A DNA stretch of 64,000 nt from Pseudomonas laurentiana (GTDB lineage: Bacteria; Pseudomonadota; Gammaproteobacteria; Pseudomonadales; Pseudomonadaceae): positions 105,499-169,498 of the forward strand of contig NZ_BMQU01000011.1 of NCBI RefSeq assembly GCF_014648275.1, in the 5' to 3' direction. Shown piece after piece: positions 37,070 to 61,683 of the stretch. The notes beneath the pieces were generated by a model. That model was given only the letters and a program-made list of their open reading frames with translations, searched no databases and had not been told where the DNA came from. Position numbers and translations under genes: made by a program. Each line of letters begins with the position of its first letter. The stretch's first letter is position 1.

Positions 37070-37165
37070 AGCTACGACGACACACAGCACATGCACATCG
37101 GTCGTAGTCATAGGATAGGGCGTGCCCGCTTTTATGGCTACACCGTAAACAGGGGATTTACGGTT

Positions 37166-37654
37166 ATGAGTCGCACAGACCTACTGCCGGACGCTGGTCC
37201 GGTCCTGTCTTTGCGTCAGGCGCTTTATCGTGCCGGGCGCGACTTCAAGGGCGGTGTTACCGCTCTTGCCTTTCAAATGGTGATCGACAACGACGCCTTG
37301 CAGAAAAAGCTGAAGCTCGATGAGGAGCGCCGGTGGCTCACCCCAGATGAACTGGAAGAGGTCATTCGCCTGACGGCTGATCCGCGACTGCTGGATGCAC
37401 TTGTGCGCCCGGCTGGTGCTGTGTGGTACCGCCCGGTACCAGTGCCTGCGACCCATGAGGCTCTGAAGGCCGTAGGCAGACTGCTGGAAGAGGCAGGTGA
37501 GTTTGTTGCCAGCATGCACGATGGTGCAGCCGACAAACGATGGGAGCAGCACGAAGTGCTCGACCTTGAGCAGCGCGGTATGGATGTGATTCGCGAGGTG
37601 CTTGGCATCATGGCCGGTGCACGCAAATCGATGGAGGACCGTCTCAATGGCTGA
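37166..37654 (+). CDS. Phage CII-family regulatory protein
   Basis: 162 residues from MSRTDLLP. The segment LSLRQALYRAGRDFKGGVT followed by MVIDNDALQKKLKLDEERRWLTPDELEEVIRLT is characteristic of the PF06892 phage regulatory CII family, common in Pseudomonas phages. It probably tunes the lysis-lysogeny choice. It overlaps the zinc-finger gene by 8 bases. An upstream in-frame ATG at 37091 adds 25 unlikely residues. Confidence 0.8.
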   Translation: MSRTDLLPDAGPVLSLRQALYRAGRDFKGGVTALAFQMVIDNDALQKKLKLDEERRWLTPDELEEVIRLTADPRLLDALVRPAGAVWYRPVPVPATHEALKAVGRLLEEAGEFVASMHDGAADKRWEQHEVLDLEQRGMDVIREVLGIMAGARKSMEDRLNG

Positions 37655-37850
37655 CATCGCTGATCTGGCCAATGAACAGGCCGACTACCACTTGCAGGTC
37701 GCGCTGGGGCGCCACAAGCGCCAGGGCGCCAAGCCAAGTGCAGATTTCTGTGTGGATTGCGATGATTCCATTCCGTTGCGTCGTCAACAGTCTGTGCCTG
37801 GCTGTGAAACCTGCATCAGTTGCCAGGAACTGCGGGAGCGTTGCAGATGA
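37647..37850 (+). CDS. TraR/DksA-type zinc finger protein
   Basis: 67 residues: a short helical N-terminus (IADLANEQADYHLQVALG) and a C4 zinc finger CVDCDDSIPLRR...CETCISC. TraR/DksA-like proteins bind RNA polymerase's secondary channel and alter host transcription. Phage members often lie next to replication genes, as here. It overlaps the primase gene by ATGA. Confidence 0.8.
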   Translation: MADIADLANEQADYHLQVALGRHKRQGAKPSADFCVDCDDSIPLRRQQSVPGCETCISCQELRERCR

Positions 37851-40543: not shown

Positions 40544-40875
40544 TCACGACTGCATGTGTGGCGGGTGTGTTGGGTTTGTGTTGGGCGGATTATCTATGGT
40601 CAACACAGGCCAAGTCCGCATTTTATGCGGGTTGCCGGGGTGGTGTTGTGGGTGTGTTGGGTTTGTCGTCGCGCACGCGCATGCGCGTTATTTTTGAGCG
40701 TAATAAACAGGTGAAAAATAATCCCCATGCGAGCCAAGAAAAACCCAACAAACCCAACACACTAAACACAGAGCCTCTGAAGCCATTGAAATCACTGGTG
40801 TTCGGTTGTGTTGGGTTTGTGTCGGGTAGTGCTGTTTTGTGTCGGGTACAGGTTTTATGGGGGATTCAGGGATGA
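40540..40875 (+). CDS. Possible small protein overlapping the repeat cluster
   Basis: 111 codons that overlap the primase stop and the next gene's start by ATGA at both ends, which suggests translational coupling. The predicted protein is hydrophobic at the start (TTACVAGVLGLCWADYLW) and low in complexity, because the DNA holds four 14-bp repeats. It may be a real small protein, or merely an open frame bridging the origin. Confidence 0.42.
   Translation: MITTACVAGVLGLCWADYLWSTQAKSAFYAGCRGGVVGVLGLSSRTRMRVIFERNKQVKNNPHASQEKPNKPNTLNTEPLKPLKSLVFGCVGFVSGSAVLCRVQVLWGIQG
40566..40820. other. Iteron cluster, candidate phage replication origin
   Basis: TGTGTTGGGTTTGT occurs four times without mismatch: plus strand at 40566-40579, 40653-40666 and 40807-40820, and inverted at 40748-40761. 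Between the second and third copies lie a 14-bp palindrome ACGCGCATGCGCGT (40675-40688) and a strongly AT-rich run (40688-40732). Repeats around a palindrome and an AT-rich patch, directly after a primase-helicase gene, are the layout of an iteron origin. No experiment or homology is claimed. Confidence 0.65.
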
Positions 40876-41348
40876 TTTACGACATCGAGAGCTTGATGCG
40901 GCATTGGGGCGAGCAGCACGCCCGGCTCGGCCACGAAGCCAGCCTGGGCAGCCAGATGGGCGCGATCATGGACTGGAAGGGCAGCGCGCCGCGTGGCACG
41001 CCAGGTACTCGTCCACTCCTGGGTGGCGGATCGGGAATGGACTACGCAGCAGCCGAGGTTGATGCGGCTGTTGCTGAGTTGGAGCGCCGCGATGAGCGCG
41101 GGCAGAAACTGGCGCACCTGGCCCGACTCCGTTACCGCCATAGCGTGACGGTGCGTGAACAGATGCAAGAAATTGGCCTGGCTGAAGGGGCGGACCGCAC
41201 TTATCGCAATTGGGTTCAGGCGCTACACCAACAGGTCGTGGTGATCCTGATGGCTCGGCAAGGTGTGGTTCGCGGCTATACCGTTCGTCGGAGTGATATG
41301 CGTCAGAGTTGCGCCAAAGTTGCGTCAAAGTCGCGTCGAAGCGAATGA
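40872..41348 (+). CDS. Antiterminator Q-like protein (candidate)
   Basis: 158 residues starting MIYDIESLMRHWG. The C-terminal half has a helix-turn-helix-like LARLRYRHSVTVREQMQEIGLAEGADRTYRNWVQALHQQV, similar to the phage Q/sigma-region-4-like regulators that sit upstream of lysis and packaging genes. Its place between replication genes and a terminator before the holin supports a late-gene antitermination role (inference). Confidence 0.55.
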   Translation: MIYDIESLMRHWGEQHARLGHEASLGSQMGAIMDWKGSAPRGTPGTRPLLGGGSGMDYAAAEVDAAVAELERRDERGQKLAHLARLRYRHSVTVREQMQEIGLAEGADRTYRNWVQALHQQVVVILMARQGVVRGYTVRRSDMRQSCAKVASKSRRSE

Positions 41349-41536
41349 CCGATAACTGCCTCTTTTCGGTTTTTCCGGTAGGGGGTAAAACGTCGCCACG
41401 ATATGCGAATTGCGCTTAGGCGCTCCCCAGGCACTGTGCTGTGCAAACCCGCCCCGAGTTGTCGGAGCATCGAGAACCCTGCCATCTGGCGGGGTTTTCT
41501 TTTTCCGGCGCCGTGCATTCGACCTATGAGGCCCTC
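41349..41536. other. Late-control intergenic region
   Basis: 188 bases between the Q-like gene and the holin gene. It contains a terminator (41475-41504). This is the expected position of the phage late promoter and Q action site. No hexamer pair is clear enough to call. Confidence 0.45.
41475..41504 (+). terminator. Terminator upstream of the holin gene
   Basis: Stem AACCCTGCC/GGCGGGGTT (9 bp with one G-T pair), loop ATCT, then a T-rich tail. It is 33 bases before the holin ATG. A Q-type antiterminator would have to override it. Confidence 0.75.
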
Positions 41537-41884
41537 ATGACCAATGAGCAACAAGCGTTAATCGAAATGCCAATCTGGATGGTCGTCGTGCTGTCCCTGG
41601 TTGGCGGCGTGTCCGGTGAAATGTGGCGGGCTGACAAGGCAGGTGCAAGGGGCTGGGGCTTGGTGCGACGCATCGCGTTGCGGTCAGGTGCCTGCATTGT
41701 CTGCGGCCTGTCGACCATCATGCTCATGTACTCCATGGGCGTGTCGATTTGGGCGGCAGCATCCATTGGTTGCCTGACGGCAATGGCCGGTGCCGATGTC
41801 GCCATCGGGCTTTACGAACGCTGGGCCGCCAAGCGGCTGGGCGTTTGCGATTTGCCTCCATCGAACGGCGGCGCTGGCCAGTGA
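41537..41884 (+). CDS. Phage holin (superfamily III, LydA-like)
   Basis: 115 residues from MTNEQQALIEMPIWM. Three hydrophobic segments at about 10-28 (MPIWMVVVLSLVGGVSGEM), 45-65 and 70-88, then a charged C-terminal tail. This fits phage holin_3_3 proteins that form the inner membrane lesion for lysis. In this phage the endolysin is far away at the end of the tail genes, a layout seen in tailocins. Confidence 0.78.
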   Translation: MTNEQQALIEMPIWMVVVLSLVGGVSGEMWRADKAGARGWGLVRRIALRSGACIVCGLSTIMLMYSMGVSIWAAASIGCLTAMAGADVAIGLYERWAAKRLGVCDLPPSNGGAGQ

Positions 41885-41970
41885 GCCGGCCAGCAACCCG
41901 CCAAGGCCGGGGACCCTGGCGCTTTTTCGGGGGTACGGGGTCGGAAACCCGCGGGACTTTGTTAGCGGCA

Positions 41971-42033
41971 GGTTCACCAGCTTAGTGAACTGCGGTGAAC
42001 TGGTGAACTCCCCGTGTTTATTGGGTGAACTGG
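41971..42033. other. GGTGAACT repeats before the terminase, cos/packaging site candidate
   Basis: GTGAACT occurs at 41985, 41995, 42003 and 42025 (GGTGAACTG at 41994-42002 and 42024-42032, GGTGAACTC at 42002-42010), with an inverted GGTTCACCAG at 41971-41980. They lie within 75 bases before the small terminase ATG. In lambda the terminase-binding R sites sit in the same place, so these may be its recognition sites (inference). Confidence 0.5.
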
Positions 42034-42043
42034 ACTATCCAAC

Positions 42044-42613
42044 ATGACCGTTATCAGCAAATCTGAATTTGCGGCACGGCGCGGCTGGGCGAAATCCTAC
42101 GTTTCCAAACTGGCCAAGCAGGATCGGCTGGTGCTGACGGCTGATGGCAAGGTTGACCTGGAGGCTACCGAAGCCCTGCTGGCTGAATCGACCGATCCCA
42201 GCAAAGCGGCCGTTACGGCTCGGCATGAAGAGGCACGCGTTGATCGTGACGTGCGCAGTCAGTTGCAGCCGATCGCCGAAACACCTGCGGTGCCAGCAAC
42301 CAGCAAGGGCCCGGACTTCCAGAAGGCCCGCGCACACCGCGAGTACTACCTGGCCCAGTTAGCTGAGGCCGAATTTCACAAAGTGCAGGGCAACCTGGTC
42401 GAGCGAGTCGCGGTCGAACAGGCCGCTTACACCGCTGGGCGCACGGTACGCGACCTGATGTTCGGGTTGTCACCGCAATTGGCGCCTGAGTTGGCCGCGA
42501 TGAGCGACCCCTGGCAAATCGAAAAACACCTGACGGGCGCATTCCGCCGCGTCTTTGAGGACGCTGGACGAATGATCACCGCCGACCTTGAACAAGCCAT
42601 GACACAGAGCTGA
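42044..42613 (+). CDS. Terminase small subunit (Nu1-like)
   Basis: Recognises the packaging site and recruits the large subunit. 189 residues. The N-terminal winged helix (VISKSEFAARRGWAKSYVSKLAKQ) resembles lambda Nu1, and a helical C-terminal part follows. It is immediately upstream of the GpA-type large subunit, which supports the role. Confidence 0.82.
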   Translation: MTVISKSEFAARRGWAKSYVSKLAKQDRLVLTADGKVDLEATEALLAESTDPSKAAVTARHEEARVDRDVRSQLQPIAETPAVPATSKGPDFQKARAHREYYLAQLAEAEFHKVQGNLVERVAVEQAAYTAGRTVRDLMFGLSPQLAPELAAMSDPWQIEKHLTGAFRRVFEDAGRMITADLEQAMTQS

Positions 42614-42617
42614 GCCT

Positions 42618-44639
42618 ATGCCCACTGGATACGCAGACGGTGCAGAGGTGTACCGCGATGCGTATTGCCGTGGGCTGCAGCCCGACCCTGAGCTCTGGGT
42701 CGATGAGTGGGCGGACGAGTACATGCGGATCCCGCGTGATACTGGTGCCGCCGAGCCCGGCCAGTACCGCACGGCGCGAACACCTTATGCCCGTGAACCT
42801 ATGCGCTGCTTGTCACCAGCCCACCCGTGCAAGCGGGTGGTGACCATGGTCGCCTCGCAGTTGATGAAAACCCAGATCGCCTTGAACTGGATCGGCGCGC
42901 TGATCCATATGTCGCCGTCGAACATCCTGACGCTGCTGCCCAGCCTGAGCCTGGCCAAGCGGGTGTCGGCGCGGATCGGCAAGACCATCAAGGCCACCCC
43001 AGTGTTGCGGGAACGTGTTGCTTCACCGCGTTCGCGTGACTCGCGCAACACCATGGACACCAAGGAGTTCGAGGGCGGCTCGCTGTATGCCACCACGGCT
43101 GGTTCAGCCGCTAACCTCGCGGAACTCTCGGCGCGCTATGTCTACGGTGACGAGGTGGACCGCTGGGACGTGGACGTCGATGAAGAGGGCGACCCGATCG
43201 AGCTGGCCGAGACCCGGGGCAGTACCTTCGGGCGCAATGCCAAGTTCTACTTCTCCAGCTCGCCAACCATTAAGGGCGCCTCGCGGATCGCCGACCTGTT
43301 CGAGGTCAGCGACCAGCGTTACTACTACGTGCCATGCCCAACTTGTGGGCACATGCAGACTCTGGATTGGGAGCGCCTGTTGTACTCGCCGGACTTTCGT
43401 ACGGTGCATTACCAGTGCGCAGGCCCTGATTGCGACGTGCTGATCGAAGAGCACCACAAGGGTGACATGCTCGCCCGTGGTGAGTGGCGATCGCATGCCG
43501 ACGGCGATGGTGAAACGGTGGGCTTTCACCTCAATGCTTTGTACGCACCGCTGGGCTGGCAGGATTGGGCGTCGCTGGCCAAGCAGTATGAGAAGGCCAA
43601 GAAAGCCCAGGACCGTGGCGACCTTGAACCCATGCAGGTGTTCTACAACACCCGACTGGCCAAGGTCTGGGACAGTGCTCAAGAGCAGACCAAAGCCGAT
43701 GTACTCCAAGCCCGTGCGCTGCAGGAAGACTTCGTGCTGGGTACGCTGGCTGTTGGCGTGTTGTCGCTGACTGCTGCGGTCGACGTCCAGGCCAACCGCT
43801 TGGAGATGATCGTCATTGGTTGGGGCATTGGCATGGAGCGCTGGGTGGTCGATCACCAGGTGATCATGGGCGACCCCTCGGACGAACGCACCTGGTCAGC
43901 GCTGGACGAGAAACTCAAGGAGCGCTATCGCCACCCTTGTGGCGTCAGCCTCGCAATTCTCGCTACGGCGGTCGACTCCGGTGGTCACCACACCCACGAG
44001 GTGTACCAGTTCTGCCGGATTCGTCGTTGGCGCAACATCTTTGCGGTGAAGGGCGCGAGCAAGTCCGGCAAGCCGGTGATTGCCCAGCGCCCGTCGTTGG
44101 TCGACGTGACCTGGAAGGGCCAGACCGAACGCAATGGCGCTGAGCTCTGGATCGTCGGTACCGACACCGCCAAGGACTGGATCTATAACCGCTATGTCGT
44201 CGAGTCGGGACCAGGTGCATTGCACTTTGCCAAGGACCTGCCAGAGGACTTCTTTGCGCAATGCGTGGCTGAGCGGAAAGTTGCCCGGTACGTGAAGGGC
44301 TACAAGCGCATCGAGTGGGTCAAGGGCAAGGCGGATCGCAACGAAGCGCTCGACTTGATGGTGTACAGCCTGGCCATGGCGCATTACCTGGGGCTGCACC
44401 GCTACGGCGAGCACGACTGGGACCGGCTCCGGCAGGCACTGGCGCAGGCCAGCCTGTTCGATGACGTGGTCCAGGCCAAGCCAGTGGCTGCGGAGCGTGT
44501 CCCGGACGACGAGCCTGCTGCACCACAGCCCGCTCCAAGTCCGCCACCGGTGGCGGCCGCGGCTAGCCCGCCACCACGTCAAACATCGCAACCCATGCAA
44601 CGCCGCGCTTCAACCAGCGGCTATCTGAAGAGACGTTGA
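42618..44639 (+). CDS. Terminase large subunit (lambda GpA family)
   Basis: Packaging ATPase and nuclease, 673 residues. The ATPase domain holds a Walker A-like ASQLMKTQ at about 78-85 and Walker B VYGDEVDRW. A zinc-ribbon-like CPTCGH...CAGPDC follows. The nuclease half carries LTAAVDVQANRLE with an active-site Asp, and the C-terminal tail is Pro/Ala-rich. The GpA type predicts cohesive-end packaging. The start ATG is 5 bases after the small subunit stop. Confidence 0.93.
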   Translation: MPTGYADGAEVYRDAYCRGLQPDPELWVDEWADEYMRIPRDTGAAEPGQYRTARTPYAREPMRCLSPAHPCKRVVTMVASQLMKTQIALNWIGALIHMSPSNILTLLPSLSLAKRVSARIGKTIKATPVLRERVASPRSRDSRNTMDTKEFEGGSLYATTAGSAANLAELSARYVYGDEVDRWDVDVDEEGDPIELAETRGSTFGRNAKFYFSSSPTIKGASRIADLFEVSDQRYYYVPCPTCGHMQTLDWERLLYSPDFRTVHYQCAGPDCDVLIEEHHKGDMLARGEWRSHADGDGETVGFHLNALYAPLGWQDWASLAKQYEKAKKAQDRGDLEPMQVFYNTRLAKVWDSAQEQTKADVLQARALQEDFVLGTLAVGVLSLTAAVDVQANRLEMIVIGWGIGMERWVVDHQVIMGDPSDERTWSALDEKLKERYRHPCGVSLAILATAVDSGGHHTHEVYQFCRIRRWRNIFAVKGASKSGKPVIAQRPSLVDVTWKGQTERNGAELWIVGTDTAKDWIYNRYVVESGPGALHFAKDLPEDFFAQCVAERKVARYVKGYKRIEWVKGKADRNEALDLMVYSLAMAHYLGLHRYGEHDWDRLRQALAQASLFDDVVQAKPVAAERVPDDEPAAPQPAPSPPPVAAAASPPPRQTSQPMQRRASTSGYLKRR

Positions 44640-44640
44640 G

Positions 44641-45081
44641 TCAGGAACTCAGCCCCAACACTGGGCTGATGATTCGTGCACCAATCCCCAGGGCTTGGCC
44701 GACCAGCCCTCTGAGCGCTTCGCGACCCTCTTCTTTGGCGGTGTTCGCTAGTTGCTCACCGATTGAAGTCTTCGAACTGACACTGTCTGGAACCGCCTTG
44801 AGCACCTCAAGGCCTTTGGCAGTTAGGACCGCATCCTCAATTCGGAGATAGGGGTATGGCTTGCCTTTCAAATAGCCCGCCTCAATGAGCCAAACCGCAG
44901 TTGCGATAAAAAACTCAGCCTCTGGGGTAGACACTTCCATTCCGTGTTGCTCGCTGAACCGCATAGCGTCATCAACGAAATCCTCCGCCATCAGGTACTG
45001 GGGGATAGGAAAACTTTGGTACAGCGCGGCGAAAATTTTGCCGGTGATGTCATCGAACTTCTCGATATTGGAGACAGCCAT
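44641..45081 (-). CDS. Opposite-strand moron of unknown function
   Basis: 146 residues from the ATG at 45079-45081. The body is helical (NIEKFDDITGKIFAALYQ; AEFFIATAVWLIEAGYLKG) and ends with VLTAKGLEVL, a pattern of winged-helix proteins. A Gly/Ala-rich amphipathic tail (GQALGIGARIISPVLGLSS) may contact membranes. It reads against the late operon and stops 2 bases after the terminase stop. Its ATG overlaps that of the next rightward gene as CATG. GGAG lies 9 bases upstream of its start. Confidence 0.65.
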   Translation of the reverse strand: MAVSNIEKFDDITGKIFAALYQSFPIPQYLMAEDFVDDAMRFSEQHGMEVSTPEAEFFIATAVWLIEAGYLKGKPYPYLRIEDAVLTAKGLEVLKAVPDSVSSKTSIGEQLANTAKEEGREALRGLVGQALGIGARIISPVLGLSS

Positions 45082-45322
45082 GTCACAAAACTCCGAGTCA
45101 AAAATGGAAAAGATCAAAGCCGCTGCCGAACTGCAGGGTGAACTGCGGCGTGTGATTGCGGACCAGCTTACTGGAAGGATGGACTGGGTCCGGGCACGCA
45201 CTTATTGGGGCTTGCGGCTACCTGCTACGTCAACGGACGAGCTTGCAGAAGCACTGGCCCACGTCCTGGCAGGCGGTAGTTTCCGTCAAGAAATCAATTC
45301 ACGGAACCAGAATTTCCTCTGA
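45080..45322 (+). CDS. Small protein divergent from the moron
   Basis: 80 residues (MSQNSESKMEKIKAAAELQGELRR...). Helical, with no known domain. Its ATG (45080-45082) overlaps the opposite-strand ATG. GGAG 8 bases upstream supports it. It lies between the terminase and gpW genes, so it may be part of the late operon or of a moron cassette with the gene on the other strand. Confidence 0.55.
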   Translation: MSQNSESKMEKIKAAAELQGELRRVIADQLTGRMDWVRARTYWGLRLPATSTDELAEALAHVLAGGSFRQEINSRNQNFL

Positions 45323-45362
45323 CTTCGCGTCGCGTGCAGGACAATTTTGTGAGAGATATTCC

Positions 45363-45569
45363 ATGGCCTACACCCAGAAGCACCTCGACGCCGTCGAGGC
45401 GGCGATCGCACGCGGTGAAAAAACCGTGCGCTACGCCGATCGTACCGTGGAGTACCGCTCGGTTGACGAGTTGCTCCAGGCCCGCGACGTCATTCGTACC
45501 AGCCTGTCCAATGCCGCTGGGCCACGCCCCCGCGTGGTTCGGCTCTATCACGGAGGCAAGGGCTTGTGA
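45363..45569 (+). CDS. Head-tail joining protein gpW
   Basis: 68 residues from MAYTQKHLDAVEAAIARGEK. The pattern TVRYADRTVEYRSVDELLQARDVI matches lambda gpW, which plugs the portal and makes the tail-binding site. It overlaps the portal gene by GTGA, and its order terminase-W-portal is exactly that of lambda. Confidence 0.85.
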   Translation: MAYTQKHLDAVEAAIARGEKTVRYADRTVEYRSVDELLQARDVIRTSLSNAAGPRPRVVRLYHGGKGL

Positions 45570-47047
45570 CGACACGTTATCCCACGCTGACCCGCTCCGG
45601 GTTCCTCCTGCCTGAGCGTCTCAAGGCCAGTTATGAAGGCGCCGCCGATGGGCGGCGTTCTGCAAGCTGGGATGCGCCCGATCTGGGCGTCAACAGCCTG
45701 ATCATGCCGGCCTTGCGCAACCTGCGCTCACGCTCTCGGGCAGCGGTTCGTAATGACCCGTACGCGGCCAACGCGATTGATCGCCGCGTCAGTAACCTGA
45801 TCGGTACCGGTATCACGCCTCAGCCTCGGCTGACGGATAAGGTGCTGCGTACGCTGCTGCAGGAGGTTTGGGAAGACTGGGTCGACGAGTCCGATGCCGA
45901 CCAGTTGACCGACTTCTATGGCCAGCAAGCCTTGGTGGCACGCACTGTCGAGCAGTCGGGTGAGTGTTTCATTCGTCTGCGGCCACGTCGGCAAGAGGAC
46001 GGTCTTGCGGTACCGCTGCAACTGCAGTGTCTGGCCCCTGAGTTTGTGCCGCACGATAAGTTCGAGGTCACCAGCAACGGCAACGTTATCCGCGCCGGGA
46101 TCGAGTTCAACGGGTTCGGACAGCGAGTGGCGTACTGGGTATATCGCTCGCACCCCAGTGACCTGGCCTCGCTCAACGCGGGGCATAACCTGTTGGTGCG
46201 TATCCCGGCCAGCCAGATGCTGCACATCTTTGAGCCCGTCGAGCCCGGCCAGTTGCGCGGCGTGCCCCGACTGGCGCCGGTGCTCAAGCGTCTGCGTAGC
46301 CTGGACAACTACGACGACGCAGTGCTGTTCCGCCAAGAGGTGGCCAACCTGTTTGCCGGCTTCATTCGCAAGCCTTCTGCCGATGGCGCGCCGATGTTGG
46401 ACCCGGTCACGGGGGCTCCGATTAAGACAGGCGCTGATGGGTTCACGCCTATGGTGGCGTTGGAGCCCGGCACCATGCAGGAGCTGCTGCCCGGGGAAGA
46501 GGTCGAGTTTTCCTCACCACCGGATGGTGGCAACAACTATCCCGACTTCATGCGGCAGCAACTGATGGCTGCGGCAGCCGGGGCAGGGTTGCCTTATGAA
46601 CTGATGACCGGCGATATGCGCGAGGTCAACGACCGGGCTATTCGCGTAGTGCTCAACGAGTTTCGTCGCCGGTTGGAGCAACTGCAGTTCAGTGTGTATG
46701 TGCATCAATTGTGCCGCCCTGTTCGGGCAGCCTGGCTCGACATGGCCGTGCTGTCCGGCGCGCTGCCACTGGATGACTACGCGCAGCGGCGGCGCGAGTA
46801 CTTGCGCACGCGCTGGGTGCCACAGGGCTGGGCCTACATCCATCCCGTTCAGGACGTGCAGTCGCGGACGATGGAAATCAACGCCGGCTTGGCCTCTCGC
46901 AGCGAGATGTGCCTGCGATCCGGTACCGATGCCGAGATCGTGGACGAAGAAAACGCCGCCGATGCGGCGCGTGCCCATGCCTTGGGCCTGAACTACAGCA
47001 CCTTGTCGGCGTTCGATGAGGATCCCGACGAGAAGGAGAAACCATGA
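45566..47047 (+). CDS. Portal protein (lambda gpB family)
   Basis: Dodecameric DNA entry ring of the capsid, 493 residues. The N-terminal RAAVRNDPYAANAIDRRVSNLIGTGI and the C-terminal MTGDMREVNDRAIRVVLNEFRRRLEQLQF are typical of the family. The start is GTG, overlapping gpW by 4 bases, and the gene ends in ATGA overlap with the protease gene. Confidence 0.92.
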   Translation: MTTRYPTLTRSGFLLPERLKASYEGAADGRRSASWDAPDLGVNSLIMPALRNLRSRSRAAVRNDPYAANAIDRRVSNLIGTGITPQPRLTDKVLRTLLQEVWEDWVDESDADQLTDFYGQQALVARTVEQSGECFIRLRPRRQEDGLAVPLQLQCLAPEFVPHDKFEVTSNGNVIRAGIEFNGFGQRVAYWVYRSHPSDLASLNAGHNLLVRIPASQMLHIFEPVEPGQLRGVPRLAPVLKRLRSLDNYDDAVLFRQEVANLFAGFIRKPSADGAPMLDPVTGAPIKTGADGFTPMVALEPGTMQELLPGEEVEFSSPPDGGNNYPDFMRQQLMAAAAGAGLPYELMTGDMREVNDRAIRVVLNEFRRRLEQLQFSVYVHQLCRPVRAAWLDMAVLSGALPLDDYAQRRREYLRTRWVPQGWAYIHPVQDVQSRTMEINAGLASRSEMCLRSGTDAEIVDEENAADAARAHALGLNYSTLSAFDEDPDEKEKP

Positions 47048-48213
47048 AACCGCTGATGCCGTTTCGCATTTTCAACAAGGCCAAGACCGCCTTGCCGGTC
47101 GAAGATCAACACTGGTACCGGATCAAGGCGGAAACCCAGGCTGATCAAACGACTATCGAGATCTACATCTACGGTGAGATCGGTGGCTGGGGCATCACGG
47201 CTAACCAGTTCATTCAGGATCTCAAGGCTCTGGACGACGGTGTATCTCCCGTGGTCGTTGCGTTCAACACCATCGGAGGCGATCTGTTCGATGGCCTGGC
47301 CATCCATAATGCGCTGAGCCGTTTGGGCGAACGTTGCACGGCACGCATTGACGCGCTGGCTGCCAGTGCTGGCAGCGTAGCGGCGTGCGGGGCACACCGT
47401 ATGGTCATGGCCTCCAACGCCATGTTGATGATCCACAACCCCTGGACCTATACGGCAGGCGATGCCGAGGACCTGCGCAAGGTCGCGGATGTGCTCGATC
47501 AGACCTTGGAGGCCATCATTGCGGCCTATAAGGCGAAGTCACCTGACATCGACGATGCCGAGCTGCGGCGCATGGTCAACGCTGAGACCTGGCTGACGGC
47601 GCAGGAATCGCTGGCCTTGGGGCTGGCCGATGAGATCGGTAACGGTGTCGAGGTCAAAGCCTGCCTTGGACAGGGCGCCGCTATACAGCGCTACCGACAG
47701 ACGCCCAAGGCGTTGCTCGACCAGCTCAACGCTGTGGTGCCGGAGCCAGATCCCACAGACCCACCGGCTCAACCGGATCCCAAAGATCCGCCGAGCCCGG
47801 ACGTGGCCAACTCGGCCAAGCTTGCCCTGATGATCACTCAGGCCTGTGCCAAGGCCGGCATCAGCAACCTGGTGGAGCCATTGATTGCCTCGACCAAGCT
47901 GGCCGACGAAGCCACGGTTCAGGCCGCAATCACCCAGGCCAAGAGCGTGCGTGACCTGTGTGTCGCGGCACGATTGCCTGAGTTGGCAGTCGAGTTCGTC
48001 AAAGCTGGCTTGGACAAGCAAGCCGTGCAGGCACGGTTGTTCGACAAACTGGTCAGCGGCGGTAAGGGTTTCGAGATCGACAACAGCCTGCCACCGGCCG
48101 ATGACGAGCCTGAGAAGGTCAAGGCTCAGCTACCCAATCCCAGTTCGATCTGGTCTGCCCGTCGGCAGGCAACGGCTGGTAAATCCAACCCCAGCAAAGG
48201 AGCACGTCCATGA
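47044..48213 (+). CDS. Head maturation protease (ClpP-like) with scaffold-like tail
   Basis: 389 residues. The N-terminal serine protease fold has the oxyanion strand NTIGGDLFDGLAI, the nucleophile Ser108 in LAASAGS, and His131 in MIHNPWT. The C-terminal half (about 230-389) is Pro-rich, then helical, and probably works as the internal scaffold, as in lambda gpC/Nu3. It starts in ATGA overlap with the portal gene and ends overlapping the decoration gene. Confidence 0.87.
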   Translation: MKPLMPFRIFNKAKTALPVEDQHWYRIKAETQADQTTIEIYIYGEIGGWGITANQFIQDLKALDDGVSPVVVAFNTIGGDLFDGLAIHNALSRLGERCTARIDALAASAGSVAACGAHRMVMASNAMLMIHNPWTYTAGDAEDLRKVADVLDQTLEAIIAAYKAKSPDIDDAELRRMVNAETWLTAQESLALGLADEIGNGVEVKACLGQGAAIQRYRQTPKALLDQLNAVVPEPDPTDPPAQPDPKDPPSPDVANSAKLALMITQACAKAGISNLVEPLIASTKLADEATVQAAITQAKSVRDLCVAARLPELAVEFVKAGLDKQAVQARLFDKLVSGGKGFEIDNSLPPADDEPEKVKAQLPNPSSIWSARRQATAGKSNPSKGARP

Positions 48214-48557
48214 GCAACATCAAACAAGAGCCGGTACACGCCGGGGAGTTCCTGCTGAGCGAAGGCGCCGGGAAGATCTCCCGCGAGGCCATCAACGTCG
48301 TAGCGGGGCCTGCAGTGATGGCCGGTCAAGTCCTCGGCATGGTCGCTGCCACGGGAGAGTTCGCGCCTTACAACCCGGCTGCTGAGGATGGCAGCGAGAA
48401 TGCCGCCTGCATCCTGTTTGCCTCGCTGGGTGAGTCCGATGTGACGCGGCGCGGTCGTGCAGTGGTGCGCTTGGCCGAGGTGAGCGAGGTCTTGCTGACA
48501 GGCCTGGACCCGGATGCCGAGAAAGCCCTGGCCGCCAACTTCATCATCGTTCGCTGA
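48210..48557 (+). CDS. Head decoration protein (lambda gpD family)
   Basis: 115 residues. AGEFLLSEGAGKISREAINVVAGP and GILF-like segments (AACILFASLGESDVT) are characteristic of gpD-type proteins that stabilise the expanded head. It lies between the protease and the major capsid genes, as in lambda. Confidence 0.83.
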   Translation: MSNIKQEPVHAGEFLLSEGAGKISREAINVVAGPAVMAGQVLGMVAATGEFAPYNPAAEDGSENAACILFASLGESDVTRRGRAVVRLAEVSEVLLTGLDPDAEKALAANFIIVR

Positions 48558-48579
48558 CGCGCTCGAAACCTTTTTCTAG

Positions 48580-48607
48580 ACCCCGCCCTGAGCGGGGTTT
48601 CTTCTTT
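48580..48607 (+). terminator. Hairpin before the major capsid gene
   Basis: Stem ACCCCGC/GCGGGGT with a 5-base loop and TTTCTTCTTT. It is followed by TCTGGAG 6 bases before the capsid ATG. It could thin readthrough or mark an old module joint. Confidence 0.7.
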
Positions 48608-48619
48608 CTGGAGTACCCC

Positions 48620-49615
48620 ATGGCTGATATCGCCATTTTTGAAGACGACGCCTTTGGTGTCGCTGCGTTGACCGCTGCCATCAATGAGCAGGAGTTTGTC
48701 CCTGGTCGCCTGGCCAGCCTCGGCTTGTTCGAAGAGGAGGGCGTGACCACCCTGACTGTGCAGATCGAGAAGGACGGTGACAAGCTGGCCCTGGTACCGG
48801 CTGGTGAGCGCGGCACCTCTGGCTTGGTGGTTGGCGGGAGTAAGCGCATTTTGCTGCCATTCAATACCGTCCACCTGCCCGAGCGCTTTACCATCAAGGC
48901 AGATGAGATTCAGGGTATTCGCGCTTTCGGTACCCAGACCGAGTTGCAGGCGGTTCAGGATGTGGTCAACAAGCGGCTCGACAAGGCGCGTCGCCAGTTG
49001 GATGCCACCCACGAATTTCATCGGATGGGCGCGCTGAACGGCAAAGTGCTCGATGCTGACGGTAGCACGGTGTTGCTGGACATCTACGATCGCTTTGGTG
49101 TCCAGCGTCAGACCTTGCCGATGGGGCTGAATGTCCCCGATACCAACGTGCAGGTGCAGTGCGTAGAAGCGCTGGACATGCAGGAAGACGCGCTGGGCAA
49201 CGTCACCACAACCTCGTCGCGTGCTTTCTGCGGCAAGACCTTCTGGAAGAAACTGATCGCCCATCCTTCTGTCGTTGATACCTACAAAGGCAGCCAGCAG
49301 GCAGCAGCGCTGCGCGGTGATGCTCGCGAAGCGTTCGAGTTCGGCGGTATCACCTGGGAGCGCTATCGCGGCAAGGTCGCTGGTATTGCGTTCATTCCTG
49401 ACGACGAGGCCCGCCTGGTGCCCGAGGGCGTTCCTGAGATGTTCCTCTCGGCCTATGCACCGGCTGACTACATGGAGACAGTCAACACCCAGGGTCTGCC
49501 GTACTACAGCAAGCTCGAACCATTGCCGTTCGGCAAGGGTATTGCCGGTGAGGCTCAGTCCAACCCGTTGCACATCTGCACCCGTCCACGCGCAGTTATT
49601 CGCCTGACGCTCTGA
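48620..49615 (+). CDS. Major capsid protein (lambda gpE family)
   Basis: 331 residues. TTLTVQIEKDGDKLALVPAGERG, SGLVVGGSKRILLPFNTVHLP and FGGITWERYRGK are typical of the E-type HK97-fold capsid. A separate ribosome binding site TCTGGAG follows a hairpin, as expected for a highly expressed structural protein. Confidence 0.9.
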   Translation: MADIAIFEDDAFGVAALTAAINEQEFVPGRLASLGLFEEEGVTTLTVQIEKDGDKLALVPAGERGTSGLVVGGSKRILLPFNTVHLPERFTIKADEIQGIRAFGTQTELQAVQDVVNKRLDKARRQLDATHEFHRMGALNGKVLDADGSTVLLDIYDRFGVQRQTLPMGLNVPDTNVQVQCVEALDMQEDALGNVTTTSSRAFCGKTFWKKLIAHPSVVDTYKGSQQAAALRGDAREAFEFGGITWERYRGKVAGIAFIPDDEARLVPEGVPEMFLSAYAPADYMETVNTQGLPYYSKLEPLPFGKGIAGEAQSNPLHICTRPRAVIRLTL

Positions 49616-56894: not shown

Positions 56895-58061
56895 ATGAGT
56901 GGATTCTTTCACGGCGTTACCGTAACGAACGTGGACACCGGGGCGCGCACCATCGCGCAGCCGTCGTCCTCGATCATCGGTCTGGTCGACACTTTCACCG
57001 AGGCTCCGGCCTTCAGCGCTAAGGTCAATGACCTGATGCTGATCACCAGCGAGCGCGAAGCCATCGCGGCGTTCGGCCCCGACTCGGCCATCACCAAGGC
57101 CTGCCAGGCCATCTACACCCGCGCCAAGGCGGTGATCGTCGCCTGTGGCGTGGCCAAGCTGGAAGACCCCGCGCAGCAAACCTCGGCGATCATCGGCGGT
57201 GTCAAACTCGACGGCACCCGTACCGGCCTGCAGGCGTTGCTGGACGGTAAAAGCCGTTTCAACGCGCAACCGCGCTTGCTGGTTACCCCCAAACACAGTT
57301 CGACCCTGGCGGTCGGTACCGCGCTGGTCGCGCTGGCTGACAAGCTGCGCGGCCTGGCCATCCTCGACGGCCCGAACACTACCGATGAAGCGGCGATGGA
57401 ATACGCCGAGAGCTTCGGCGCGAAGCGTGCCTATCTGGTCGACCCCGGTGTGCAGTACTGGGATACCACGGAAAGCGCAACGGTCAACGCGCCGGCTTCG
57501 GCCTGGGTGGCTGGCCTGTTCGCCTGGACCGATGCCGAGTACGGTTTTTGGGCTTCGCCATCGAACAAGGAATTTGTCGGTATCACCGGCACCACGCGCC
57601 CGGTCGAGTTTCTGGACGGCGACGAAACCTGCCGGGCCAACCTGCTCAACAACGCGAATATCACCACCATCATTCGGGATGACGGCTACCGCCTGTGGGG
57701 CAACCGCACCCTGTCCAGTGATCCGAAATGGGCGTTCGTCACCCGCGTGCGGACGATGGACATCGTTATGGACGCGATCCTCTACGGCCACAAGTGGGCG
57801 GTCGACCGCTCGATCACCGCGACCTACGTCAAGGACGTGACAGAAGGCCTGCAGAACTTCATGCGCGACCTGAAGAACCAAGGCGCGATCATCAATTTCG
57901 AGGTCTTCGCGGACACCGAGCTGAACACCGCCAGTCAGCTGGAGCAGGGCAAGGTGTTCTGGAACATCCGTTTCACCGACGTGCCGCCTGCCGAAAACCC
58001 AACCTTCCGGGTCGAGGTCACCAATCAATGGCTGACCGAAGTCCTCGATGCTGCCGCTTAA
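56895..58061 (+). CDS. Tail sheath protein FI
   Basis: Contractile sheath, 388 residues. GVTVTNVDTGARTIAQPSSSIIGLVDTF, FWASPSNKEFVGITGTTRPVEF, and the C-terminal NIRFTDVPPAENPTFRVEVTNQW are diagnostic for P2 FI. Strong ribosome binding site TCTGGAG. The tube gene follows 12 bases later. Confidence 0.92.
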   Translation: MSGFFHGVTVTNVDTGARTIAQPSSSIIGLVDTFTEAPAFSAKVNDLMLITSEREAIAAFGPDSAITKACQAIYTRAKAVIVACGVAKLEDPAQQTSAIIGGVKLDGTRTGLQALLDGKSRFNAQPRLLVTPKHSSTLAVGTALVALADKLRGLAILDGPNTTDEAAMEYAESFGAKRAYLVDPGVQYWDTTESATVNAPASAWVAGLFAWTDAEYGFWASPSNKEFVGITGTTRPVEFLDGDETCRANLLNNANITTIIRDDGYRLWGNRTLSSDPKWAFVTRVRTMDIVMDAILYGHKWAVDRSITATYVKDVTEGLQNFMRDLKNQGAIINFEVFADTELNTASQLEQGKVFWNIRFTDVPPAENPTFRVEVTNQWLTEVLDAAA

Positions 58062-58073
58062 GGAGCGCACCCA

Positions 58074-58583
58074 ATGGCAATGATTCCTCAAACCCTGGCG
58101 AACATGAACCTGTTCGCCGACGGCATCAGCTTCAATGGCGATGTGCCCAGCCTGACCCTGCCCAAACTGACCCTCAAGACCGAGGAACACCGTGCCGGTG
58201 GCATGGATATGGGGATCGAGCTTGACCAGGGCATGGAGAAGATGGAGGCCGGGTTTGTCACCACGGGCGTTCGGCGTGAGTCGCTGAAGTTCTTCGGCCT
58301 GGCAGATGCCACGGCGTTCAACGGCACGTTCCGGGGGGCCTTCAAAGGCCAAAAGGGCGCGATCACCCCGGTCGTGGTCACCCTGCGCGGCATGCTGAAA
58401 GAGGTCGATATGGGCGACTGGAAGGCCGGCGACAAGGCCGAGATTAAACACAACGTGGCGGTCACCTACTACAAGCTGGAGATCGAAGGCCGCGTGATGT
58501 ACGAAATCGACCCGCTTGGCATGAAGCGCGTTATCAATGGCGTCGACCAGCTCGCCGCTCAACGTTCGGCCCTTGGCCTGTAA
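58074..58583 (+). CDS. Major tail tube protein FII
   Basis: 169 residues. MAMIPQTLANMNLFADGISFNGDVPSLTLPKL and RRESLKFFGLADATAFNG match P2 FII. It forms the inner tube inside the sheath. It starts 12 bases after the FI stop. Confidence 0.9.
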   Translation: MAMIPQTLANMNLFADGISFNGDVPSLTLPKLTLKTEEHRAGGMDMGIELDQGMEKMEAGFVTTGVRRESLKFFGLADATAFNGTFRGAFKGQKGAITPVVVTLRGMLKEVDMGDWKAGDKAEIKHNVAVTYYKLEIEGRVMYEIDPLGMKRVINGVDQLAAQRSALGL

Positions 58584-58614: not shown

Positions 58615-58917
58615 ATGAGCAAGAAAGTCCCCGTTCCAAGCTGGCTGAACATCACCGAGGACGGCGTCATTGTGACGCTCCGAAAACCAATCGTGATCGA
58701 TGGTGTCACAGTCGACAAATTGACCATGCGCGAGCCTACCGTGCGCGATATTCGTGCAGCCAGTGCGATGGCGAACGGAGATGACGAGGTGCGCGAGCTG
58801 AACCTGCTTTCATCGCTGACTCAAGTCGGACAGAGCGCTCTGGATTCTATCGGCCTCCGTAACTATAAGCGTCTGCAGGAAGGCTATTTTCGTGTGGTCG
58901 AAGACGACGAACTTTGA
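58615..58917 (+). CDS. Tail assembly protein E
   Basis: 100 residues. KPIVIDGVTVDKLTMREPTVRDIRAASAM and the LNLLSSLTQVGQSALDSI segment fit the P2 E family, the tape-measure chaperone encoded with a frameshifted longer form. It ends GAA-CTT-TGA, followed by C, the same shift-prone sequence as the E. coli prfB site. Confidence 0.85.
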   Translation: MSKKVPVPSWLNITEDGVIVTLRKPIVIDGVTVDKLTMREPTVRDIRAASAMANGDDEVRELNLLSSLTQVGQSALDSIGLRNYKRLQEGYFRVVEDDEL

Positions 58918-59029
58918 CCCGATCGTGCAAAAGATGGTGGCAAAGCGGCTCGCCAAGGAGCTGAACTTTTCCGCCGCCGAACTCATGACCATGTCGTTTT
59001 CCGACATGGTCTGGTGGCTCACGGATTGA
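58892..59029 (+). CDS. Tail assembly protein E' (GpE), in +1 frame of E
   Basis: 45 codons from a GTG preceded by AGGAAGG 8 bases upstream, or the 37-residue C-terminal part of an E-E' fusion made by +1 shift at 58912. The sequence ends KELNFSAAELMTMSFSDMVWWLTD, like the HWPPSEL...MSLSEL..W end of GpE. In P2 this part is made by -1 frameshifting, and in Mu by -2. A fusion here would have 137 residues. Confidence 0.6.
   Translation: MWSKTTNFDPIVQKMVAKRLAKELNFSAAELMTMSFSDMVWWLTD
58912..58918 (+). other. Candidate +1 programmed frameshift site CTTTGAC
   Basis: In the E frame CTT is the last sense codon and TGA the stop, followed by C. Slipping one base forward makes CTT-T-GAC and continues in the E' frame to 59029. 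CTT-TGA-C is the known release factor 2 (prfB) shift sequence. The strong SD stimulator of prfB three bases upstream is absent here: the bases before it read GAAGACGACGAA. Confidence 0.55.
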
Positions 59030-59058: not shown

Positions 59059-61683
59059 ATGGCGAACAAGCTGGCGTTAGGGCTGGTGATCGGCGGCGCC
59101 GTCAGTGCGACGGTGGGCGCCGCCTTCAGCACGGTCGAAGGCCGTATCAAAAAACTGGAGCAGCAGGGCAACAACGCCAAGGTGTTGAAGAACACCATCG
59201 GCGAAACCATGCGCTTGCGTGATGAGTGGAAGAAAGCGCATGACAGCGGTGCAGCCTCGGCCAGTGGCCTGCTGCGCAAGCTGGAGTCCAATCTGGATAG
59301 CCTGCGCAAGCAGGGCGTGGAAGTCGGGCGACTGGCGAAGGAATACCAAGCCCTTGGCCGGGTAGCCAAGGGCGTTGATCTGCAGATGAAAGGTCATCAG
59401 CAGATCGAGCAGGGCAAGGCCAGCCTCAAGTCGGGGATCGGCCAGGCCGTGGCTGGTGTCGGTGCAGTGGCGGTACCGACCACGATCAGCGCGGGCTATC
59501 AGGCGATCATCCGCGACATTGCGATCAAAGCCGACGTGGCCAACAAGCCACAAGAACAGGAAATGACCCGCGCCATTATCCAGACCTCGCAGGATACGGG
59601 GATGGGGCGCAACGACGTTGCCGACCTGGTGAACCAACTGGTCGGCGCCGGTATGGAGCTGGACAAGGCGCTGGCCTATGCGCCGGTGGCGGCGAAGTTC
59701 GCTATAGGCCAGGGGGCAAGCGGCGTCGACACGGCCAACATGATTCAGGCGCTGCAGCAGAACGCCAAGATCAGCGACCCCAAGGTCATGGAGAAAGCCC
59801 TGGAGGGCATTGCGCTGCAGGGCCAGGCCGGTAGCTTTGAAGCTGCCGACATGGCCAAGTGGTTTCCGCAACTGCTCGCCGGTATGGATAAGCTGGGTAT
59901 CAGTGGCCCTGATTCGGTTGCCCAGCTTGGCGCCATGCTGCAGGTGCAGATGAAGACGGCCGGCAGTTCGGATGAAGCGGCCAACAACCTGAAAAACTGG
60001 ATGGAGAAAATCGGTTCCGGGGATGTGGTAAAGGCCTACAAGGACGCCGGCATTGACTACAACGCGTCGCTGAACACCGGCATACAGGATGGCATGTCGA
60101 CGCTGGAGTCGAGCTTTGCCCTGGCGCAACGCTACGTCGAGGCGACCAACCCCGAGCAGGCCAAGAAGATGGCCGAGGCGACGGCCAAAATCAGTAAGGA
60201 GACTGATCCGGCCAAAGCACAGGCCATGCTCGACTCATTGGAAAAGGCTCTGCGTACTGGCGATATCTTCGCTGACATGCAGGTCAAGGCGGCGCTGACC
60301 GCCTACGCCGCCAACCGGGGCTTGTACGAGAAGCTGAAAACCGACGCCAAAGACGCCACTGGCATTCTCGACAAGAACCTGGCCGAGCGCCGGGAAACCT
60401 CGGCGCAGATGTGGAAGGAGATGGGGCATGCGGTGGATGACAGCATGCGTGCCATTGGCGATGCCATACGCCCAGCAACGGACATGGCGGCCCAAGGCCT
60501 GACGTGGGTGGCCCGTTCGCTGACCCGCGTTACTGAATCGGCCTCGCCGCTGGTGTTGGGGGTTACTGCACTCGGCGCCGGTTTCATCGCCCTGAAAAAC
60601 GCGATGGCCGTGCTCAAGATCGGCAAGGGCATGCTCAACGTCGCCCGTGGCTCGATGATGGGCGACCCCAAGGTCGTGCAGCGGGTGTTCGTCACCAACG
60701 CCCCAGCGGCGGGCGGTGGCAGCAGCGGTGCGGGCGACCTTGGCGACGCAGACGGCAAGCGTGACAAGCGCAGCAAGGGCGGCAAGGGGCGCTCAGGCGG
60801 TGGTCTGAGCATCGGCAGTGTGGTCAAGGGCGCAGGGGTTGTCGCGGTCGTTGATGCCGGCATGAAGGCCGTCGACACCTACCAGAACGCCGAAACCCGA
60901 GACGAGAAAGCCGAGGGTTACGGCGAGGCTGCAGGCGGTTTGGCAGGCACTCTGGCGGGTGCTGCTGCCGGTGCTGCGGTAGGCTCACTGGTGCCGGTTA
61001 TCGGTACCGCCGTGGGCGGTGTTGTCGGCGGTATCCTGGGCTCCATGGGTGGGACGGACCTCGGCGGCTGGTTGGGTAAAAAGCTGTTCGGGGGCGAGGA
61101 TGATCCGGCTGCTGAGGCACCTGCTGCAGCACCGATCTCGCTGCTCAAGCCGGTTCAGGTTGGTCCAGCCGTGCCAAGCCTTGGTGCGACGGCGCAAGCC
61201 TTTGCCCCGAAGGCCGGGCCGATTGCCGCCCATGCGGTCGGGCCCGTGGCACAACCCGTCGTTGCCTCAACGCCGGTGTCCTATGACCCGCGCGACCCTG
61301 GCTCAAAAGATCCGTTCCTGCTTCCCACGCTGAACAACAAGGTCAGGTTTCCGGGCGCCGCTCCGGTACGGCCTGAATCGCGGCCACCGACGCCAAACAT
61401 GGGGGATGTGGTGCGGTCGATGGCGGTGACCAAGCCTGCCGCCGAGGCGGTACCGGCGATCCTCAAGGCACCGGAGGCGAGCAAGCCCGAGCCGAAGCCT
61501 GAGCCGCCCAAGATCGACCAGCAGTTCACGTTCTCCCCGGCGCTGTCTGTTACGGTTCAGGGCGATGTGAAAGACCCGGCGCAATTGGCTCGTGACCTAT
61601 CGCCGCACCTGCAGCGCCTGTTCGATGACTTCAGTCGCCAGGCTGCAGCCCGTCAAATGTTTGATGCCCCGCATGTGGGCTAA
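59059..61683 (+). CDS. Tail tape measure protein (P2 gpT family)
   Basis: 874 residues, setting tail length. Long alpha-helical and coiled-coil stretches at both ends (AAFSTVEGRIKKLEQQGNN; residues about 370-450). A glycine/alanine-rich hydrophobic segment near 625-675 (GGLAGTLAGAAAGAAVG, then VGGVVGGILGSMGG) could insert in the membrane at ejection. The C-terminus has Pro/Ala-rich linkers and a final VTVQGDVKDPAQLARDLSPHLQ motif. It starts 29 bases after the E' stop. Confidence 0.9.
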   Translation: MANKLALGLVIGGAVSATVGAAFSTVEGRIKKLEQQGNNAKVLKNTIGETMRLRDEWKKAHDSGAASASGLLRKLESNLDSLRKQGVEVGRLAKEYQALGRVAKGVDLQMKGHQQIEQGKASLKSGIGQAVAGVGAVAVPTTISAGYQAIIRDIAIKADVANKPQEQEMTRAIIQTSQDTGMGRNDVADLVNQLVGAGMELDKALAYAPVAAKFAIGQGASGVDTANMIQALQQNAKISDPKVMEKALEGIALQGQAGSFEAADMAKWFPQLLAGMDKLGISGPDSVAQLGAMLQVQMKTAGSSDEAANNLKNWMEKIGSGDVVKAYKDAGIDYNASLNTGIQDGMSTLESSFALAQRYVEATNPEQAKKMAEATAKISKETDPAKAQAMLDSLEKALRTGDIFADMQVKAALTAYAANRGLYEKLKTDAKDATGILDKNLAERRETSAQMWKEMGHAVDDSMRAIGDAIRPATDMAAQGLTWVARSLTRVTESASPLVLGVTALGAGFIALKNAMAVLKIGKGMLNVARGSMMGDPKVVQRVFVTNAPAAGGGSSGAGDLGDADGKRDKRSKGGKGRSGGGLSIGSVVKGAGVVAVVDAGMKAVDTYQNAETRDEKAEGYGEAAGGLAGTLAGAAAGAAVGSLVPVIGTAVGGVVGGILGSMGGTDLGGWLGKKLFGGEDDPAAEAPAAAPISLLKPVQVGPAVPSLGATAQAFAPKAGPIAAHAVGPVAQPVVASTPVSYDPRDPGSKDPFLLPTLNNKVRFPGAAPVRPESRPPTPNMGDVVRSMAVTKPAAEAVPAILKAPEASKPEPKPEPPKIDQQFTFSPALSVTVQGDVKDPAQLARDLSPHLQRLFDDFSRQAAARQMFDAPHVG

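Follow-up and report, generated by a model that had tools for sequence, protein, structure and literature searches.

The stretch analysed here, called the window, comprises 64,000 nucleotides of Pseudomonas laurentiana (contig NZ_BMQU01000011.1, positions 105,499 to 169,498 of the forward strand) and constitutes the end of its contig. It carries a prophage whose head genes are of the lambda type (GpA terminase, portal, Clp protease and capsid protein E) and whose contractile tail is of the P2 type, with genes in the order sheath, tube, E and tape measure (Table 1). The product of gene E belongs to Phage_TAC_7 (PF10109), scoring 69.7 bits over residues 20-95 against a curated cut-off of 25. Its reading frame ends with GAA CTT TGA CC, exactly at the CTT-TGA-C heptamer named in the initial annotation, and from the GAC that follows CTT the +1 frame continues for the 37 codons counted there, up to its own TGA. 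The left part of the prophage (window 37091-49612), with a CP76-type regulator, a Prim-Pol primase and the lambda-type head joined to the P2-type tail, resembles the chimeric prophage 03 of P. fluorescens Pf-5, as far as the accessible part of its description goes (PMC2647930).

Table 1. Tail genes and candidate recoding features of the window.
Feature	Position	Strand	Remarks
Tail sheath gene (FI)	56895..58061	+	PF04984 and PF17482
Tail tube gene (FII)	58074..58583	+	PF04985, E-value 1.2e-58
Gene E, tail assembly chaperone, 100 aa, frame 0	58615..58917	+	PF10109, E-value 2.2e-19; between tube and tape measure genes
AGGAAGG, Shine-Dalgarno-like	58877..58883	+	ends 4 nt 5' of TTT; 9-mer CAGGAAGGC, duplex energy -6.5
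Proposed +1 shift site UAU_UUU_CGU	58885..58893	+	putative slip UUU -> UUC
Codons at the shift site	TAT (E site) 58885-58887, TTT (P site) 58888-58890, CGT 58891-58893	+	
E' in the +1 frame, 45 codons (VWSKTTNF...WWLTD)	58892..59029	+	stop TGA 59027-59029
Overlap	58892..58917	+	frame 0, end of E; +1 frame, fusion linker (probably both read)
CTT-TGA-C, end of E	58912..58918	+	CTT 58912-58914, TGA 58915-58917, C 58918; +1 codons Phe-Asp (TTT GAC)
Tape measure gene	59059..61683	+	PF10145, E-value 1.6e-23

The second reading frame downstream of E

A search of the genus found E in 120 of 399 genomes, and 130 genus loci were analysed after exclusion of the weakest ones, the unlisted ones and the first copies of tandem genes. 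The set was extended by two samples that overlap with it, comprising the 80 best among 548 viral-contig relatives and the 80 best among 120 loci of named genomes; of 80 named genome records with a close E, 78 bear the name Pseudomonas. Removal of identical stretches gave 210 distinct junctions (150 bases) with the E stop in place, and the counts at UUU_C refer to 290 loci, 233 of them distinct, including 13 genus loci without a stop at the junction. All of these loci come from one gene family, and the locus counts are not independent. A class-wide search for E detected it in only 4 other genomes among 369, a nucleotide search of phage records gave no match, and E as a single query against viral contigs detected no relative.

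Downstream of E, all 130 genus loci analysed have an open +1 frame with the WW-type motif that identifies an E' domain, which supports the initial proposal of a P2-type E/E' pair with a shift into the +1 frame instead of -1. Within 87 nt past the junction, a premature stop interrupts the -1 frame in 168 of the 210 distinct junctions and frame 0 in 83, but the +1 frame in none. The pN/pS of the E' region is 0.39 when read in +1 and 1.21 when read in frame 0 (896 pairs with 70-93% identity), compared with 0.20 for frame 0 before the junction, and close to the junction the most variable codon position changes from that of frame 0 to that of the +1 frame. Moreover, E' is co-linear with the E' of -1-shifting phages (hhalign probability 95.5, 35 columns). 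As in other tail assembly chaperones, two overlapping frames thus lie between the tube and tape measure genes, the second of them homologous to a known E'. E' alone matched no Pfam, PHROGs or NCBIfam model; since no Pfam family was listed up to an E-value of 10, E' is not assigned to Phage_P2_GpE (PF06528). Profile comparison with P2's own E' was likewise not significant (E-value 0.21), so that the "GpE-like" ending of the initial annotation stands through intermediates, the E' of -1-shifting phages, and not as a direct match to P2. Taken as sequence evidence, the comparison supports a programmed +1 frameshift that would give an E+E' fusion; the computational evidence is strong for a shift into the +1 frame and good for the site discussed below.

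Position of the shift and alternative routes to E'

Near the end of E, TTT followed by C is found in 233 of 233 distinct loci, at one and the same codon in 226 and one codon later in the remaining 7. The context of the former is TTT-CGC in 173, TTT-CGT in 51 and TTT-CGA in 2, so that the overlap holds a conserved slippery site as in known tail chaperone pairs, with frame-0 UUU_C followed by CGU or CGC as in the UUU_C class of shift sites. In the window this TTT lies 24 nt upstream of CTT-TGA-C and begins 27 nt before the E stop. Among the 78 representatives examined, TTT is the codon used in 75/75 of those with Phe at this position, against a background of 34%. In the tree analysis of E it is the codon of 76/76 representatives with Phe there and shows no change, while a control Phe codon at -108 changed at least 14 times. 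The synonymous diversity ratio is 0.00 at the TTT codon and averages 0.51 after it and 0.86 upstream, although it is noisy, with upstream lows of 0.23 at -48 and 0.42 at -81 and a high of 1.11 at -15 within the overlap.

The +1 frame is also constrained between this codon and the E stop. A +1-frame TGG is present in 233/233 distinct loci although the frame-0 codon there varies, and no locus (0/233) has a +1 stop between the slip and the E stop, where 8.9 were expected and the minimum in 300 synonymous shuffles was 3. Further upstream such stops are common, at -59 in 90/233 loci and at -65 in 71/233. In the overlap, Val before a codon starting with A is written GTC in 8/8 cases and otherwise GTG in 168/205 (Fisher p 2e-6), a choice of Val codon that avoids a +1 stop. 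Because the +1 constraint begins at UUU_C, upstream of the E stop, the shift is placed there; the site is most likely UAU_UUU_CGU, and it is quite probable that the fusion arises there by a slip of tRNA-Phe.

The initial annotation had instead placed the shift at CTT-TGA-C, which is probably wrong. At such a prfB-like shifty stop, tRNA-Leu would slip from CUU to UUU while termination is slow, giving the junction peptide VVEDDELDPIVQK. In fact, the NTT counts first led us to favour this heptamer as the main site. Of 130 genus loci, 117 have the E stop at the junction, one of these with an additional E' codon, as do 80/80 of the best viral contigs (of 548) and 80/80 of the named genome loci (the best among 120). 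The last E codon is NTT in 196/210 distinct junctions and CTT or TTT, the codons expected before a prfB-type stop, in 132/210; of the 45 representatives whose E ends with Leu, 39 use CTT, a codon with 5.3% use elsewhere in E. TGA is the E stop in 154/210, whereas the control, the tube gene from the same loci, terminates with TAA in 123/140 and has CTT as its last codon in just 24/140. Mapping of the synonymous constraint led us to drop this position. A shift at the stop accounts neither for UUU_C and TGG nor for a +1 frame that is already open before the stop; coding in +1 should begin at a prfB-type stop, yet here the frame is open and constrained already from -24. Moreover, 13 of the 130 genus loci lack the E stop at the junction and still carry the +1 E' and UUU_C, and none of the 19 E'-bearing loci of another genus of the family and P. 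aeruginosa has it there. All three stop codons are used. The strong Shine-Dalgarno that in prfB directly precedes CUU is absent; near the junction the best mean duplex energy, reached in windows whose end lies 7 nt before CTT, is -4.4, compared with -10.3 for a prfB 9-mer.

The NTT codon itself is adequately explained as a residue of the fusion, with TGA or TAA providing the start of an Asp or Asn codon. Read in +1, this position encodes Phe in 212 of the 233 distinct loci, Cys in 17 and Leu in 4. The residue reading is preferred because the 13 stop-less loci retain Phe, as TTC, before E' in 7 cases, and otherwise Leu (4) or Cys (2). Likewise, the 14 of 210 junctions that read CTG-TAA or GTG-TAA, where re-pairing in +1 looks poor, are an anomaly for slippage at the stop and become plain Cys codons in +1 if the shift occurs at UUU_C. 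Altogether we regard a shift at the E stop as very improbable. Both sites could also be active, UUU_C first and the NUU-stop as a second chance, producing two fusions that differ in their linker. Both are conserved in the genus of the window and lead to the same frame, but selection at NTT appears to act on the residue, as these same stop-less loci suggest, and two active sites seem to us very unlikely.

E' could alternatively be made as a free protein, from GTG 58892 after AGGAAGG, from an ATG in some relatives or by re-initiation after the E stop. The GTG put forward initially as the competing explanation is present in the window, with a well-spaced Shine-Dalgarno. Yet among the 210 distinct junctions the window alone has a GTG at this position (-23), and 92/210 have no ATG, GTG or TTG from -51 to +24; the same lack is seen in 55 of the 117 genus loci with a junction stop, and only 10 of the 117 carry such a codon between -24 and 0. 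An AUU start at -29 fares no better, as the codon is ACN in 18/78. Since no general start codon exists, many loci must rely on a frameshift, and homology makes the same probable for the window; on these start-codon counts an independent start was rejected as the general route in the genus of the window, and for E' as such we consider it distinctly improbable.

It may nevertheless act in some relatives. A +1-frame ATG at -8 to -14 is found in 11 of the 13 stop-less genus loci (L080, L084, L088, L096, L104, L109, L124, L131, L029, L133 and L136) and in 3 of the 117 with a stop, as though a start of its own for E' might stand in for something at the stop. Five independent pairs on the tree show this association and none opposes it (sign test, median p 0.125). 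These 11 loci may also make free E', but loci with ATG retain UUU_C and TGG.

Tandem duplication of E provides a natural control. In 22/22 tandem genes the first copy, with no E' behind it, lacks Phe at the site and has Ser, Ala, Thr or Lys instead, whereas the second copy has TTT-C in 22/22; the set consists of genes in which both copies matched the motif, and most belong to one clade. In several lineages of the genus, E is duplicated in this way within one open frame of about 200 aa, with E' only after the second copy (L086, L093, L095, L097, L100 and 17 others).

Another genus of the family, together with a P. aeruginosa record, has UAC_UUU_CGC and a +1 E' in 19 of 21 loci, where E ends 42-69 nt after the Phe codon and never at the junction. 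The two other loci, L352 and L353, both of the same genome, read TTC-ATG at the site, and no frame downstream of it contains a recognisable E'. This control is weaker than it appears, because 18 of the 19 loci have a +1-frame ATG 40 nt after TTT that makes a free E' possible there. The exception, L337, has neither a junction stop nor an ATG, GTG or TTG between TTT and E', which speaks against a free E'. In the tail clusters of these P. aeruginosa and other-genus loci (L033 (OQ658366), L308-L310 and L337-L351), E' is situated between E and the tape measure gene. In OQ658366, an 18.5-kb P. aeruginosa record and perhaps an R-pyocin, E' is unannotated. The P. lundensis plasmid-phage L354 has UAU_UUU_CGU, with no gene between E and the tape measure gene in its incomplete gene table.

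Proposed mechanism and relation to known frameshifts

In the proposed model, a P2-type tail assembly chaperone is encoded in two parts, E and E'. The majority of ribosomes would read E in frame 0 and terminate at TGA 58915, while a minority would slip with tRNA-Phe in the P site of UAU_UUU_CGU, its anticodon re-pairing from UUU to UUC; we infer that the move is +1 rather than -2, with GTG 58892 as the first codon of the new frame. The predicted product is a 137-aa fusion of E residues 1-92 and 45 aa (VWSKTTNFDPIVQK...WWLTD), with the junction peptide LQEGYFVWSK. By analogy with lambda G/GT and P2 E/E+E', many copies of E and few of the fusion would attach to the tape measure protein and bring in tube subunits.

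No strong general stimulator of the slip was found among the features inspected. AGGAAGG, 4 nt before TTT, may stimulate the slip in the window copy, although it occurs in only 4/210 distinct loci and is not general; across loci no consistent Shine-Dalgarno was found at either candidate site, and the Shine-Dalgarno potential upstream of UUU_C is weak and inconsistent. Folding energies around the site match those of synonymous shuffles (mean z 0.19 and -0.09), and RNAalifold detected no conserved structure on the junctions (covariation term -0.13). In the window, an 8-bp hairpin (GGUCGAAG/CUUUGACC, 58894-58920; folded stretch -10.4) follows right after the site; it was set aside as a general stimulator, as it was not found to recur across loci. 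Transcriptional slippage was also rejected, there being no homopolymer run beyond TTTT at the site. CGC in the A site is not rare, accounting for 54% of the Arg codons in these E genes. UAU precedes UUU in 60 of 78 representatives (background 19%) and is not universal. This preference recalls prfB, where weak E-site pairing accompanies more +1 shifting, according to the accessible part of PMC6321510.

The arrangement resembles that of P2 E/E+E' and the lambda G/GT class, in which the tube, E, E' and tape measure genes follow one another as they do here and a short chaperone likewise has a frame-shifted C-terminal extension. P2 differs in that its record annotates E+E' with a -1 site at a TTTTTTG run, against +1 at UUU_C here. 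Phages Mano and Mica have a homologous PF10109-type E and a co-linear homologous E' annotated as chaperone frameshift products, but their E' lies in the -1 frame. Tailed phages are described, in the available text of PMC5009743, as shifting by -1, -2 or +1 depending on the phage. The same text mentions +1 shifts in structural or tail assembly genes of Listeria phage PSA and the archaeal virus HSTV-2, that of PSA differing by a Pro codon at the shift.

The closest likeness at the site itself is PA-X of influenza A, where, in the accessible portion of PMC3498833, a +1 shift occurs at UCC_UUU_CGU with UUU re-pairing to UUC, and where a broader group of UUU_C sites, limited in their E- and A-site codons, is predicted. 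In both cases the shift is +1, and UUU_C at the P site has CGU as its A-site codon. Unlike E/E', PA-X is translated by eukaryotic ribosomes from an unrelated gene with another E-site codon, and its shift was proved by mass spectrometry, whereas that of E/E' is proposed from comparison of sequences. With prfB (release factor 2) the locus shares the CUU_UGA_C heptamer at the E stop and the UAU that mostly precedes UUU_C. It differs from prfB in the strong adjacent Shine-Dalgarno, which the host's own prfB has (GGGGGTATCTTTGAC) and the E junction lacks, in the use of all three stops and in a stop site that is dispensable in relatives. All CUU-stop sites in RECODE are prfB, as stated in the part of PMC10885494 that is accessible.

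No report of a +1 shift in a P2-type E/E' of Pseudomonas was found in the open-access literature, a scope outside which key subscription papers lie. Chaperone frameshifting by -1, -2 or +1 and UUU_C slippage as in PA-X are both known; their combination was not found in print. If the shift takes place as proposed, a large and naturally varied set of +1 sites in bacteria would be available beyond prfB, with natural controls built in as tandem genes and stop-less relatives. One phage protein pair would then be made via -1 in some phages and via +1 in others, and an overlooked protein part would be added to Pseudomonas tail clusters. A conserved-looking CUU-stop, moreover, may be a by-product of another reading frame and should be judged with caution.

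In 28 loci from other families of the class or order, inspected by eye, the E'-like domain lies in the -1 frame in 26 and in the +1 frame in L324, L321 being cut off. We find it somewhat probable that a UUU_C-type +1 shift, without a stop codon, an obvious rare codon or a conserved structure, is the standard route to the chaperone fusion in contractile-tail prophages and R-pyocin-like clusters of Pseudomonas and a sister genus, that it replaced the -1 shift of relatives, and that it may have arisen again elsewhere, as the UUU_CGU with a +1 E' in L324 would suggest. In this locus, from another family of the same order, E ends with AAA TTT TTT CGT CAT TAA and is followed by the +1 E'-like domain, a possible independent UUU_CGU shift; L331 and L332, in contrast, have a -1 shift after a run of T.
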